From Thermococcus argininiproducens (GTDB lineage: Archaea; Methanobacteriota_B; Thermococci; Thermococcales; Thermococcaceae): 64,000 nucleotides of DNA. The DNA lies in NCBI RefSeq assembly GCF_023746595.1, contig NZ_CP080572.1, positions 310,001-374,000 of the forward strand. Direction: 5' to 3'. The number at the start of each line of letters is the position of its first letter. Position 1 is the first letter of the stretch. The notes beneath the pieces were generated by a model, which did not search any database, had not been told where the DNA came from, and saw only the letters and a list, made by a program, of their open reading frames with translations. Shown here piece after piece: positions 33,908 through 62,657 of this stretch. The translations under genes were made by a program, and so were the position numbers.

Positions 33908-34360
33908 ATGCAATGTCCATTTTGCAATCCATCACGAGAAGTGTTACTCTATGAAGATGAAAGGATTAGAATCCTTATTGACTCATATCCAGCAAGCAGA
34001 GGGCACTTGCTTGTAGTCCCCATAAAACATGTAGAACGGATAGAGGAATTAGAAGAGGATGAAAAACTTGCTCTTTTAAACGGCATTGAAATCTCGATTA
34101 AAAAACTTAAAGAAGCTTTAAAACCGGATGGATTTAACATAGGGATAAATCTTGGAGAAGCTGCAGGACAGACAGTTTCTCATCTCCATATACACGTTAT
34201 TCCTCGATATAAGGGAGATAGCACCTTTCCCAGAGGAGGCATACGAAAGGCTGTTCTTAATGTTGAGGACGAAAACTTAAGTCTTAAGGAAAAATGGATA
34301 AAGAACAGACTAAAAGAAGACGAAAAGAAGAAACTGGTGGAATTATTCCGCAATATCTAA
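33908..34360 (+). CDS. HIT-family hydrolase
   Basis: A 150-residue histidine-triad nucleotide hydrolase or transferase with the triad SHLHIHVIPRYKGD (about 95-108). A CPFC motif at residues 3-6 with a second pair nearby suggests the zinc site of HIT proteins. Relatives cleave AMP-linked substrates such as adenosine phosphoramidate. GAGGTGG precedes the ATG. The last 18 bases overlap the convergent MazG-YbaK gene. Confidence 0.9.
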   Translation: MQCPFCNPSREVLLYEDERIRILIDSYPASRGHLLVVPIKHVERIEELEEDEKLALLNGIEISIKKLKEALKPDGFNIGINLGEAAGQTVSHLHIHVIPRYKGDSTFPRGGIRKAVLNVEDENLSLKEKWIKNRLKEDEKKKLVELFRNI

Positions 34361-35095
34361 AAGCTCAGCCTTTTGAAATTCTAGGATTTTCTTTGGACTG
34401 AGCTTACTTAATCTATCTATCCTCCCTCCCCCTCCAATTACAAATTCTTTCCCAAGAACTTTCTCATCCATTATTGTTCTTATGGGAACTCCTACTGGTG
34501 GAACTTCACCAACTTTATATCCCGTAATCATCTCGACTTCTTTGGCTTTTGCCATTCTAACGTTCCCAAAGACCTTTTTCAATTTTTCAATGCTTGCCTT
34601 TGATTTTCCATCCACTATAACAAGGATAGGTTCACTTTCATTTACTATAAAAACCAGAGATTTAATTATCTGATCTGGTTGAACACCAAGAAGTTTCACA
34701 ACTTGCTTTACACTCTTAACCTCTCCTTTCGGTTCTATTATCTCCCCTCCAAGCTCTTTAACTATTTCTTCAATTCTTATTTCTTTTACAGGATATTTTT
34801 CTTCATTCTTCTTCAACTTTTCTTCTACTGCCTTATCTAGATCTATTCCCAGTTCATGAGCTAAGATAACAAGGTAGATTATTATATCCGCCATCTCCTC
34901 TTCAATCTTTTCCTGTACTTCCTTATTTTGGATCTTTTCAAAGATTTCATCGTTCGTTTCCCACTGGAAATGCTCCAAAAGTTCCCCAAGTTCGATTGCT
35001 AATGAGATTGCAAGGTTCTTTGGGGTATGATATTTTCTCCAGAGTCTTTCATCCCTGAACTTAATTACTTTTTCTTCAATTCCCTTAAAATTCAT
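34343..35095 (-). CDS. MazG-like NTP pyrophosphohydrolase fused to YbaK/ProX-type tRNA deacylase
   Basis: A 250-residue two-domain protein. Residues 1-105 form an all-alpha NTP-PPase of the MazG/RS21-C6 type with SLAIELGELLEHFQW and EKIEEEMADIIIYLVILAHE (EXXE...EXXD metal motif). Residues about 105-250 form a YbaK/aminoacyl-tRNA deacylase domain with the key Lys in IIKSLVFIV, then EVEMITGYKVGEVPPVG and FVIGGGGRIDRLSKL. One half would clean abnormal nucleotides, the other mischarged tRNA. It overlaps the next minus-strand gene by 11 bases. The domain calls are firm; the joint function is unknown. Confidence 0.85.
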   Translation of the reverse strand: MNFKGIEEKVIKFRDERLWRKYHTPKNLAISLAIELGELLEHFQWETNDEIFEKIQNKEVQEKIEEEMADIIIYLVILAHELGIDLDKAVEEKLKKNEEKYPVKEIRIEEIVKELGGEIIEPKGEVKSVKQVVKLLGVQPDQIIKSLVFIVNESEPILVIVDGKSKASIEKLKKVFGNVRMAKAKEVEMITGYKVGEVPPVGVPIRTIMDEKVLGKEFVIGGGGRIDRLSKLSPKKILEFQKAELLDIAE

Positions 35096-35372
35096 GTATC
35101 CTCATCTCCCGCATAACCTTCAAGTATTCTAGAAGCTCTTTCAATTCTTCTTTTGAGAATTTCTCCTCCACGTCCTCATCCGCGCTAAAAGTCAATAGAT
35201 ACTCCCTTATTTTATTCAACTTTTCAAGTTCATCTTCCAGTTCAAGAGACCTTTTAGTGAACTCCCATGAAGTGTGTGGACTCTCAAAAATTCTCTGCTT
35301 ACTACTTACTATTGCTATCTTTACATTTGCTATTGCGTCATCAACCAGTTTGATCAACTCTTCTATTTTCAT
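35085..35372 (-). CDS. Hypothetical helical protein (95 aa)
   Basis: A small highly charged, probably all-helical protein that I do not recognise. It shows heptad-like stretches (MKIEELIKLVDDAIANVKIA, LELEDELEKLNKIREYLLTF, KFSKEELKELLEYLKVMREM), so a helical hairpin or coiled coil is likely. Its 3' end overlaps the start of the MazG-YbaK fusion gene by 11 bases, implying cotranslation and possibly a regulatory or structural role for that enzyme, which is inference. Confidence 0.65.
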   Translation of the reverse strand: MKIEELIKLVDDAIANVKIAIVSSKQRIFESPHTSWEFTKRSLELEDELEKLNKIREYLLTFSADEDVEEKFSKEELKELLEYLKVMREMRIHEF

Positions 35373-35445
35373 TTTTCACACCGTCAAGAGTTAACAGACA
35401 AATTATTTAAAGTTTAATTTAGGAAAATAAAATGAGGTGGGTCGA

Positions 35446-35703
35446 ATGGACCTCGACCTATTTATGGAAAAGTATGGATTCAAAATTCTTCTTCCATTAG
35501 TCTTCGGAGTGCCTGCTATCATGATAGGAGCATTTCTCATAGCCCCTGCACTCCCAGATCTCTTCAGAGGAGAGTACTCCGAAGCATTGCAAATCATTGC
35601 ATTCATTCTACTCTTTGCAGTAGTCCTCGGTGGAATTGCCCACAAATCAAGAGTCTTCGCGGGTGGAATCTTTGGCAGATATTGGTACAAATGGAAAAGG
35701 TGA
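35446..35703 (+). CDS. Small two-helix membrane protein, paralog 1 of 3
   Basis: An 85-residue protein beginning MDLDLFMEKYGFKILLPLVF. It has two transmembrane helices (about 13-35 and 45-65) and a short basic tail (GRYWYKWKR). The start is ATG 35446, six bases after GAGGTGG; an in-frame GTG at 35437 lies in that site. It is the first of three tandem paralogs sharing an N-terminal (M)D(L/F)D(L/I)FMExYGFKIL motif. Family unknown to me. Confidence 0.7.
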   Translation: MDLDLFMEKYGFKILLPLVFGVPAIMIGAFLIAPALPDLFRGEYSEALQIIAFILLFAVVLGGIAHKSRVFAGGIFGRYWYKWKR

Positions 35704-35708
35704 GGAAA

Positions 35709-35987
35709 ATGGATTTTGACATTTTCATGGAGCGATACGGGTTTAAAATTTTGATGGTATTCATAACAGTGATAGCATTGATAGTCCCTCTGCATTATCT
35801 CTTCTTTTATCTTATAGCTATCAAAAAAGAAGAGCTAGCATATGCAATATTAGTAATAGGGTTCTCTCTCGCATTTGCACTAGTTCTCAGAAGTACAAAA
35901 GGAATAATTACCGAGTACAAAAAGTCCCATAGAAAAGTTCATGGAGAGAGTTTGTATAAAATTGTTCAGAAAAAGACGAGGAGGTGA
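35709..35987 (+). CDS. Small two-helix membrane protein, paralog 2 of 3
   Basis: A 92-residue paralog beginning MDFDIFMERYGFKILMVFIT, with two hydrophobic helices and the cytoplasmic-looking basic tail KSHRKVHGESLYKIVQKKTR. The ATG at 35709 follows AGGTGAGG, five bases after the stop of paralog 1. It is the most divergent of the three in helix 2 and the tail. No catalytic residues are visible. Confidence 0.7.
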   Translation: MDFDIFMERYGFKILMVFITVIALIVPLHYLFFYLIAIKKEELAYAILVIGFSLAFALVLRSTKGIITEYKKSHRKVHGESLYKIVQKKTRR

Positions 35988-35992
35988 GAATT

Positions 35993-36250
35993 TTGGATCT
36001 TGATCTCTTCATGGAACGGTATGGATTCAAAATCCTTCTTGGAATAATGGCCCTTGTAATACTCGGCCTTTTTGTAGTGCCCCTATTGGGAATGGTAGAA
36101 CTCATAAAGAGATTTGGCCTCGAGATAGGACTCTTCATGATCATAATAGCCGCTCTCTATGGTTTTATCGTTTGGAGAAGAACTTCCGAAGCTTATGCAG
36201 AGGCCCATGGAAAGTATTTCTATGACGATAAATGGTATAAAAGAAAATGA
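35993..36250 (+). CDS. Small two-helix membrane protein, paralog 3 of 3
   Basis: An 85-residue paralog, identical in length to paralog 1. I place the start at TTG 35993, giving MDLDLFMERYGFKILLGIMA, because this aligns with the other two and follows GAGGAGGTGAG. The GTG at 35984 would overlap the stop of paralog 2. Two helices are followed by the tail EAHGKYFYDDKWYKRK, comparable to the tail of paralog 1. It is convergent with iorA, only two bases apart. Confidence 0.7.
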   Translation: MDLDLFMERYGFKILLGIMALVILGLFVVPLLGMVELIKRFGLEIGLFMIIIAALYGFIVWRRTSEAYAEAHGKYFYDDKWYKRK

Positions 36251-44462: not shown

Positions 44463-45614
44463 ATGGTGCGTGTGGTGATACTGGGTCAAGGATATGTGGG
44501 GAGTATTTTTGCTCTCGGGGTAGAGAGAATAAAAAACGGCGAATTAGGATATTATGGTATCCCTTTGGAAAATGATCTCCCCATAAAAATCGAAGATATT
44601 GAAATAGTTGGTAGTTACGATGTGGATAAAGACAAAATTAGAAAATCTCTCTATGAGATAATTGGAAACTATTGGGATGGCCACGTGCCCAAGAACCTAA
44701 AAAACATTGTTGTGAGAAAAGGAATTCACTTAAACAGCTTAAGAAATCTACCTTTTGAAGTTGAAGGACTAGAGGATGAGATGTCTCTTAAAGAAGCCGT
44801 TGAGACTCTTGTTAATGAATGGAAAAAGCTAGAGGTCGATGTAATAGTAAACGTCTGTACAACAGAAGCATTTGTTCCATTTAAGAACAAGGGAGACCTC
44901 ATTGCAGCAATTGAAAATGATGATAGAGAGAGGCTAACTGCCACCCAAGTATATGCATATGCTGCAGCTCTTTACGCAAAAGAAACCAATGGTGCGGCTT
45001 TTGTAAATGCAATTCCAACCTTAATAGCAAACGACCCTGCTTTTGTAGAACTCGCTAGAGAGAGTAATTTGGTAATATTCGGAGATGATGGAGCAACAGG
45101 TGCCACTCCATTTACTGCAGATATTCTGACCCATTTGGCCCAGAGAAACAGATACGTTAAAGATATTGCTCAATTTAATATTGGAGGAAATACAGACTTT
45201 CTAGCCCTAACAGACAAAGAGAGAAACAAAAGTAAGGAATTCACAAAGTCTAGCATTGTTAAAGAGCTCCTTGGATATGATGCTCCCCACTACATTAAGC
45301 CCACAGGATTTCTGGAACCCTTAGGAGATAGGAAGTTCATTGCAATGCACATTGAATATGTAAGCTTTAATGGAGCAGTTGACGAGCTTATAATAAATGG
45401 AAGGATCAACGACAGCCCAGCCTTAGCAGGTCTTCTAGTGGATTTGGTAAGGTTAGGCAAAATTGCCATCGAAAGAAAAGAATTCGGAACAATTTACGAA
45501 GTAAACGCTTTTTATATGAAAAACCCTGGACCACAGGAAAAAGGCAACATACCAAGGATCATCGCCCATGAAAAAATGAGAACATGGGCAGGATTAAAAC
45601 CAAAGTGGCTTTAG
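44463..45614 (+). CDS. Myo-inositol-1-phosphate synthase
   Basis: A 383-residue NAD-dependent enzyme that turns glucose 6-phosphate into inositol 3-phosphate, first step to the heat-stress solute di-myo-inositol phosphate and to archaeal inositol lipids. Rossmann glycines are in VVILGQGYVGSIFALG. Further family motifs are VNVCTTEAFVP, FGDDGATGATPFTADIL and NIGGNTDFLAL, with catalytic lysines such as that in NKSKEFTKSSIV. GAGAGGTGAT precedes the ATG. Its last bases overlap the convergent alaX gene. Confidence 0.93.
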   Translation: MVRVVILGQGYVGSIFALGVERIKNGELGYYGIPLENDLPIKIEDIEIVGSYDVDKDKIRKSLYEIIGNYWDGHVPKNLKNIVVRKGIHLNSLRNLPFEVEGLEDEMSLKEAVETLVNEWKKLEVDVIVNVCTTEAFVPFKNKGDLIAAIENDDRERLTATQVYAYAAALYAKETNGAAFVNAIPTLIANDPAFVELARESNLVIFGDDGATGATPFTADILTHLAQRNRYVKDIAQFNIGGNTDFLALTDKERNKSKEFTKSSIVKELLGYDAPHYIKPTGFLEPLGDRKFIAMHIEYVSFNGAVDELIINGRINDSPALAGLLVDLVRLGKIAIERKEFGTIYEVNAFYMKNPGPQEKGNIPRIIAHEKMRTWAGLKPKWL

Positions 45615-46840
45615 CTCTTTTTGATTTTTTCTTTTAGGAGGGCCCTTGCTATTCTAAGGACCTCCTCTGGAGCCTCTCTAAACCCTCCTCCTCTGGCTAA
45701 AACCTCACTCCCTCCTCCACTACCACCGACTTCATTGAGGACTTCTTTAAGGAGTTCATTCATTGCAATGTCTTTAACCTCCTTATTTTTTGCAAAAATC
45801 AAGTAATTTCTCCCCACTATTAATGCTACTGTATCAGGATTTTTATCTACAAAATAAACTACAAACGCTTGGGCGTCCTTCATAGATGCATCTTCTACAA
45901 TGGAGACAACTCTTATCCCATTGATATTCTCAGCACTCTGTAGAAGTGCCTTGCTCTTCCATTTCCACGTCTCTCTCCTCAACTTGTCTTTTTCTTCTTC
46001 AAGAGTCTCAAGCTCTCTTTTAACTTCAAGTATTCTATTAAAAAGAGGCCTGTTTTTATTTAACATTTCACTTAGGCTTTTCCAATAGTCCTCTAATAGC
46101 TTGTCCAGATATATTAAGGCCCTATAACCACAAACAAACTCTATACGCCATATGTTTCTGGCTTTTTTATAAAAGTTAACTATTTTTATAAAACCAACTT
46201 CTCCGGTGTTTCTTACGTGTGTACCACCACAGGGAATTAAATCCACTTCATCTATTTTTATAATTCTAATTTTCCCTGTTACCTCTTTTGGAAGGGCCTT
46301 TCTAAGAGAACTCCTAATTTCTTCAGGGAGTTCGTCGTACTCGCTAACCTCCACAGGAACATTACTCCAAACAACTTCATTTGCCTCTAACTCAGCAGCA
46401 AGAAGGTGCTCCCATGTCAACTCCTCATCAAAGTTTATTTCTATCTTATTATAATCGGGAAAGATTTGAAACCCTGTTGTATCACTATTGTACATCTTCT
46501 TTAAAACAGCAGAAAGAATATGTTGGCCGGTATGCTGTCTCATGTTTTCATATCTCCACTCCCAATCAAGTTCAAGCTCTACATTTTCCCCAATTTGGGG
46601 GAGCCTGCCCTTGATCCTACCTTCATGCCAAATTTCCTCCTTTCCTTCTACCTTTCTCACATCAATTCTGAATCCTTCTCCTTTTATAATTCCAATATCA
46701 CCCGGCTGGCCTCCTCCCTCAGGATAGAAGATAGTCCTATCCAATTTTAGTCTAATATTATCTCCATTAACTTCAATTCCCTCTATCTTTGCCACAGCTT
46801 CTTTTAAATATGGATCAGCATAAAATAACTTAACTGTCAC
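45611..46840 (-). CDS. alaX: Alanyl-tRNA editing protein AlaX (long form with DHHA1 domain)
   Basis: Trans-editing factor that hydrolyses Ser- or Gly-tRNA(Ala); about 409 residues, so the AlaX-L type. The editing domain includes TIFYPEGGGQPGD, the zinc site MRQHTGQHILSAV (HxxxH) and LIPCGGTHVRNTGEVG (CxxxH). A coiled-coil linker (about 255-300) leads to a C-terminal DHHA1 domain with NEVGGSGGGSEVLARGGG. The GTG at 46840 is preferred (MTVKLFYAD, as in relatives); an alternative GTG lies at 46849. Confidence 0.9.
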   Translation of the reverse strand: MTVKLFYADPYLKEAVAKIEGIEVNGDNIRLKLDRTIFYPEGGGQPGDIGIIKGEGFRIDVRKVEGKEEIWHEGRIKGRLPQIGENVELELDWEWRYENMRQHTGQHILSAVLKKMYNSDTTGFQIFPDYNKIEINFDEELTWEHLLAAELEANEVVWSNVPVEVSEYDELPEEIRSSLRKALPKEVTGKIRIIKIDEVDLIPCGGTHVRNTGEVGFIKIVNFYKKARNIWRIEFVCGYRALIYLDKLLEDYWKSLSEMLNKNRPLFNRILEVKRELETLEEEKDKLRRETWKWKSKALLQSAENINGIRVVSIVEDASMKDAQAFVVYFVDKNPDTVALIVGRNYLIFAKNKEVKDIAMNELLKEVLNEVGGSGGGSEVLARGGGFREAPEEVLRIARALLKEKIKKS

Positions 46841-46885
46841 ATCCCTCACCAGAATAAAAATCTCAGTGAAAAGATAAAAAGATAA

Positions 46886-62020: not shown

Positions 62021-62581
62021 TTAACTCTTTTTAAGGTTTTCTTTTAACCATCTTGCAAATTCTGTCAATGCCCTACCCCTATGTGAAATCTTGTTTTTCT
62101 CACTAGTGGTCATCTCAGCAAATGTTTTAGTACTTCCTTCTGGCAAAAAGATTGGATCAAACCCAAACCCATGCTCCCCTCGTTTTTGATCAATGATCCT
62201 TCCATATACAATGCCCTTAAAGAGATGTAACTCTCCATCATAATATCCAATTACACTTTTAAAATAAGCTTTCCTATTTTCTAGCCCCACCATTAACTTT
62301 AGTATCCCCTCATTTCCGAGAGTTCTATAAACGTATGCAGAATAAACTCCCGGAAAACCATGAAAAGCCTCAATAAAAAGGCCTGAATCGTCTATGAAAA
62401 AAGGTTCATCAAAATAGTCCTTCAACCAATTAACCCCAAAAGCCACAACTTCTTCAAGAGTATTTGCTTGTATCTCTGGATATTCCACTTTTTTTTGTAT
62501 AACTTCAATCCCAAGGGGGGAAAGATAGCTTCTAACCTCGTCTAATTTTCCTTTGTTAGATGTTACAAAAATCATCCTCAT
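62021..62581 (-). CDS. XTP/dITP pyrophosphatase (HAM1/RdgB family)
   Basis: A 186-residue house-cleaning enzyme that hydrolyses ITP, XTP and their deoxy forms. The nucleotide motif is [18 protein letters not shown] at the N-terminus; metal-binding [20 protein letters not shown], then [16 protein letters not shown] and [18 protein letters not shown] are all present. ATG 62581 follows GGTGG; the GTG at 62590 is inside that region. Confidence 0.93.
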
Positions 62582-62657
62582 GTTTTCCACCTACTCATCA
62601 AAAGAATTAGAAAGTTAAAAAGATTGAGCTCAGTGCTCCTCATCTTAGTGAAGGATT

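Follow-up and report, generated by a model that had tools for sequence, protein, structure and literature searches.

A DCTPP1/RS21-C6-like pyrophosphatase domain fused to a predicted aminoacyl-tRNA editing domain in Thermococcus argininiproducens and its relatives

One gene in the window (the whole stretch of 64,000 nucleotides of Thermococcus argininiproducens DNA analyzed here) encodes two domains of known families in a domain architecture that is new and confined to a narrow group of genomes (Table 1). The protein is probably a housekeeping enzyme with two functions and an independent active site for each; its predicted activities are those of a dNTP pyrophosphatase and an aminoacyl-tRNA deacylase. 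A natural fusion of an editing domain with a nucleotide-pool enzyme is an unusual architecture. No description of a MazG-INS fusion was found in the titles and abstract openings of the open-licence literature, and the main text of a survey of archaeal fusions (PMC11237513) mentions neither MazG nor a deacylase.

The original prediction, made from the sequence alone, was of a MazG-like nucleotide pyrophosphohydrolase fused to a YbaK-type tRNA deacylase. Its core, a genuine two-domain fusion of a MazG-like and a tRNA-editing domain, is borne out by Pfam and by a confident two-domain model. PF12643 (MazG-like) matches residues 30-108 (E 1.5e-19, 70.4 bits against a cut-off of 27), and PF04073 (tRNA_edit) matches residues 125-239 (E 1.1e-23, 84 bits against a cut-off of 25.5). 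In an AlphaFold2 model (69 rows) both domains are well folded (mean pLDDT 93.5), while their placement relative to each other is less sure (pTM 0.64); residue 100 closes the last MazG helix, and residue 103 opens the first INS helix. A Foldseek search with this model paired the N-terminal half with 4qgp and mouse dCTPase, and the C-terminal half with 2cx5, 2z0k, and 1wdv. PADLOC returned nothing for the fused protein.

Table 1. The fused gene, its domains and key residues, and its two neighbours (positions in the window)
Feature	Position	Strand	Evidence
Fused gene, 250 aa + stop	34343..35095	-	ATG start, one open frame
Residues 1-103, all-alpha NTP pyrophosphatase domain, DCTPP1/RS21-C6-like	34787..35095	-	PF12643, PDB profile matches, model
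E35xxE38, first metal-binding motif	34982..34993	-	Invariant in 16 fused proteins and 49 aligned MazG domains
E67xxD70, second metal-binding motif	34886..34897	-	E67 invariant, D70 at least 90% in 49 MazG domains
N97, deoxyribose-preference residue by alignment	34805..34807	-	Aligns with RS21-C6 Asn125; invariant in 49 MazG domains
Seam, residues 104-107	34775..34786	-	Ends and starts of standalone MazG and INS genes
Residues 108-250, INS-superfamily aminoacyl-tRNA editing domain (predicted)	34346..34774	-	PF04073; 1wdv, 2cx5
K145, conserved INS lysine (IKS)	34661..34663	-	Invariant in 42 INS domains and 16 fused proteins
G196-E-V-P-P200, GXXXP loop	34496..34510	-	G196 and P199 invariant, P200 at least 90% in 42 INS domains
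GGGG loop, residues 221-224	34424..34435	-	Sequence; alignments of fused proteins and of 42 INS domains
HIT-family hydrolase, convergent, 18-base overlap with 3' end of fused gene	33908..34360	+	
Small helical protein, 95 aa, 11-base overlap with start of fused gene	35085..35372	-	

By family, fold, and its metal and deoxyribose residues, the N-terminal half is of the DCTPP1/RS21-C6 type. "MazG-like" thus describes it correctly as an all-alpha NTP pyrophosphatase, but it is not MazG proper: a profile of 49 MazG domains scores 109 bits against 4qgp and 90.5 bits against DCTPP1/RS21-C6, versus at most 28 bits against other MazG-type structures, and the NCBIfam models for MazG itself fall far below their cut-offs (TIGR00444, 20.5 versus 148.3 bits; PRK09562, 21.4 versus 208). 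The predicted EXXE...EXXD motif is kept throughout the 16 fused proteins. In a gap-free alignment D70 and N97 correspond to Asp98 and Asn125 of RS21-C6, residues that have been tied to sugar recognition and deoxyribose preference (PMC2954211). Both DCTPP1/RS21-C6 and A. fulgidus AF1178 (PDB 4QGP; 46% identity to the N-terminal half in the structural alignment) share with it the fold, the two metal-binding motifs, and N97. However, the solved proteins consist of this domain alone, whereas in the fused protein an editing domain follows directly. These likenesses point to dCTP or a modified dCTP as the most likely substrate.

The C-terminal half belongs to the INS superfamily by family, lysine, and GXXXP loop, the last two being the motifs by which the superfamily is described (PMC11286415). 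A profile of 42 INS domains scores best against the uncharacterized APE2540 (1wdv, 108 bits), followed by ProXp-x (2cx5, 94 bits), YbaK (1dbu, 59 bits), and the INS domain of ProRS (44 bits). APE2540 (1WDV) and ProXp-x (TTHA1699, PDB 2CX5/2Z0K) are also the best matches when sequence and structure are considered together, with 29-34% identity, and have the fold, the conserved lysine, and the GXXXP loop in common with the C-terminal half; the solved proteins, unlike the fused domain, are free-standing. YbaK, a Cys-tRNA-Pro deacylase, shares superfamily and fold (Foldseek, 1dbu and 2dxa) but is a weaker match, and the YbaK equivalog TIGR00011 gives 60.5 bits against a cut-off of 153.25. Because this cut-off is far from reached, "YbaK-type" is true at the superfamily level only. 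A review, moreover, calls YbaK bacteria-only (PMC11295145). As for the motifs originally named, the IKS lysine is retained in every fused protein, while the GGGGRID loop is not wholly invariant, reading GGGGSI in two of the 16 (L009 and L010) and AGGGRID in six proteins from genus g6.

ProXp-x deacylates 2-aminobutyrate (Abu)-tRNA and, less well, Ala-tRNA-Pro, with a preference for A73 (PMC11295145). By this likeness, the fused domain would most likely remove small, wrongly attached amino acids (Ala or 2-aminobutyrate, and perhaps Cys) from tRNA-Pro and other A73 tRNAs. The fused domain is the single PF04073 match in its own genome, and the ProRS found there is a family-I enzyme (a 494-codon frame) without an INS domain, which leaves the fusion as the sole candidate for INS-type proofreading in this genome. 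INS-type domains with an added domain are described elsewhere, namely ProXp-ala joined to ProRS in Plasmodium and plant ProXp-ala with a C-terminal domain (PMC11295145). In those cases, however, the partner is a synthetase or a helical tail, whereas in Thermococcus it is a nucleotide-pool enzyme.

The original prediction proposed a survey of domain architecture in Thermococcales and named, as grounds for rejection, separate genes in relatives together with a sequencing-induced fusion. The survey places the fusion in two genera (g1 and g6) and in a basal lineage of a third (g3). Some match was present in 57 of the 61 family genomes covered, and 16 carried the fused gene at full length, with one more cut by a contig end, all in g1 or g6; a search of 115 genomes added two g3 genomes, G091 and G097, for 18 at full length in all. 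Seam and locus are identical in these 18, several of which are single-contig assemblies with no internal stop. An assembly artefact or a pseudogene therefore has a negligible chance of being the explanation. Separate genes do exist in relatives, in other genera, but the fusion is not a product of sequencing. The g1 and g6 genomes without a fused gene (G040, G042, and G027) are 75-79% complete. A scan of contigs, for which the queries were two MazG peptides only, found five of 11 loci fused (one cut by a contig end), all Thermococcaceae. Mobile elements yielded no fusion: none of 82 matching plasmid records covers 80% of the query, nor does any of 23 phage records, and viral contigs gave one weak MazG-like locus but no INS match.

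Identity over the whole open reading frame is 73-98% in 15 other genomes, a conservation that extends beyond the motifs and is not given by chance. Median dN/dS values for g1 and g6 are 0.055 and 0.066 in the MazG half and 0.075 and 0.072 in the INS half (in g1, where synonymous sites are saturated, 21 of 45 pairs were usable for MazG and 39 of 45 for INS). Purifying selection acts on both halves. Retention of the editing domain also differs between genera: among 53 near-complete genomes an INS domain is present in all 14 from g1 and g6 versus 13 of 39 from other genera (11 intact, two broken), a difference with a Fisher p of ~1e-5, although the genomes are related and so are not independent cases.

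These data bear on the possibility that the fusion is neutral, two unrelated housekeeping genes having been joined by chance with no effect and retained by inheritance. Such an account would expect what is seen in crown g3 genomes, which do without the fused domain and in many cases without any INS domain. Yet both halves are kept in all 18 full-length genomes, with low dN/dS where measured, and only one decayed copy was seen; we regard neutrality as a tentative second reading. The decayed copy, in the basal g3 genome G108 (L191:1645-2305), contains stops and frame shifts, and an intact standalone INS gene lies elsewhere in the same genome (L207). Fusion thus does not always protect the editing domain, and G108 is possibly a case of redundancy and loss. 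The fused lineages, set beside sister genomes in which the domain is split, decayed, or missing, offer a natural experiment on the value of trans-editing in hyperthermophiles.

The fused gene sits in an arrangement of neighbours that relatives keep without the editing domain. As originally described, a HIT hydrolase gene converges on its 3' end and the gene for a small helical protein overlaps its start (Table 1); the latter protein has only weak, sub-threshold matches and no convincing family. At standalone MazG loci the helix gene lies beside MazG in 20 of 25 cases, and 12 of these 20 also have a convergent HIT gene within ~100 bases. The 12 fused loci read with long flanks keep the helix-MazG-HIT order, except that the INS domain follows MazG. 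The small helical protein is possibly a partner of MazG. The AlaX editing factor and the ITPase noted in the window are indeed present (an AlaX-like protein at 45611-46849 and Ham1/ITPase at 62021-62590), but the genes behind the view that such functions stand out here are some 10 and 27 kb from the fused gene and, at that distance, lie outside the fusion locus. Two further features were seen at these loci. Next to the fusion locus, at 35437-36250(+), are three tandem small membrane proteins with similar 'DLFMERYGFKILL'-like starts, the copy number of which differs among relatives, and the HIT gene of G020 (L073:5600-6259) contains ~210 extra bases inside.

The seam suggests how the fusion arose. 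At the conserved helix locus, standalone MazG reading frames terminate after codon 104-108, apart from those of G059 and G052, which are longer or truncated by a stop. The family's standalone INS proteins begin at position 105-107 of the fused numbering. Since the seam thus runs nearly from stop to start codon, the fused protein approximates a standalone MazG protein and a standalone INS protein set end to end. In the INS tree the fused proteins lie apart from the standalone ones, the standalone branch having support of 88/90 and the fused branch a weak 61/30. A single clade of the fused loci is not rejected for either MazG (AU, 0.40) or the helix gene (AU, 0.45). A V-ATPase tree places G091, a genome with the fusion, as sister to the remaining g3 genomes (99/99). 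The MazG, helix, and HIT trees are compatible both with an ancestral fusion in g1, g6, and g3, lost in crown g3, and with sideways transfer. One origin by joining is the simplest account.

Two other histories were considered and set aside. Fission, in which the standalone INS genes of g3 would derive from a basal g3 fused gene, was rejected (AU p 6e-5). In g3 the standalone INS gene has an AlaX gene on one side and, on the other, a conserved gene that we take to encode cDPG synthetase, and in g6 these two flanking genes are adjacent with a gap of ~200 bp, so that the gap could be read as an empty donor site. This idea was dropped: the gaps hold no recognizable remnant (best E 0.2), one g4 genome has the pair adjacent with no INS gene there, and the standalone INS genes of g2, g4, and one g5 genome are elsewhere. 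At eight loci (L057, L058, L059, L061, L062, L064, L207, and L208) the standalone INS gene is divergent from the AlaX-type gene, so that two trans-editing factors adjoin; having AlaX as a neighbour in g3 agrees with a function of the INS domain in editing.

Why the two domains are joined is a separate question. The original prediction saw the fusion as joining nucleotide-pool cleansing to aminoacyl-tRNA quality control, and a functional coupling, either as one fidelity pathway or through regulation of one activity by the other, could be the reason for it. Both domains look active, and the same seam joins them in three lineages. However, where the genes are separate they are far apart (the nearest pair on one contig, in G047, is ~112 kb apart) and were never adjacent in the loci read. 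Moreover, among 39 genomes 10 have both, three INS only, 14 MazG only, and 12 neither (Fisher p 0.30), although the odds ratio of 2.9 leans towards association and a weak link is possible. Because the separate genes are distant and do not co-occur significantly, coupling of the two chemistries is unsupported, and we consider it decidedly improbable.

DCTPP1-type enzymes are oligomers. The MazG half might therefore serve also, or mainly, as an oligomerizing platform that displays several INS copies per particle and so binds tRNA more firmly. The precedent for such an arrangement is plant ProXp-ala, in which the added helical C-terminal domain dimerizes the protein and improves tRNA binding (PMC9425024). 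Against this analogy, the catalytic residues of the MazG half do not vary and purifying selection on it is strong, and for this reason it is not a scaffold only; the platform reading appears unlikely. Far less probable still would be a combination in which the deacylase, through its dCTPase half, becomes a multi-headed particle and editing responds to the dCTP/CTP pool; if that were true, one protein would set both the status of DNA precursors and the fidelity of translation.

In the preferred reading the two active sites would work independently: the N-terminal domain would be a DCTPP1/RS21-C6-type dNTP pyrophosphatase with dCTP or modified dCTP as its most likely substrate, and the C-terminal domain an aminoacyl-tRNA deacylase, performing a task beyond the INS-less ProRS in cis. 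The editing domain would have been joined seam to seam behind MazG in a pre-existing helix-MazG-HIT locus, probably once. The two chemistries probably do not feed each other. Instead, the fusion would fix, and perhaps oligomerize, the only INS-type editing domain of the genome and, as its distribution suggests, may guard it from loss by tying it to an expressed enzyme.

Three observations lie outside this argument. G009 (L153 and L059) is labelled g5, yet its V-ATPase and standalone INS gene group among g3; transfer, mislabelling, or a mixed assembly may be the cause. The Hyperionvirus protein A0A3G5A643 (BFVD), annotated as a tryptophan-tRNA ligase, aligns with the model over 245 columns (E 1e-7, rmsd 14, 12% identity) and may hold an INS-like domain. 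Finally, V-ATPase subunit A of seven of the 28 genomes searched (L155-L161) carries several hundred extra residues near position 240-255, an insertion as expected of an intein.
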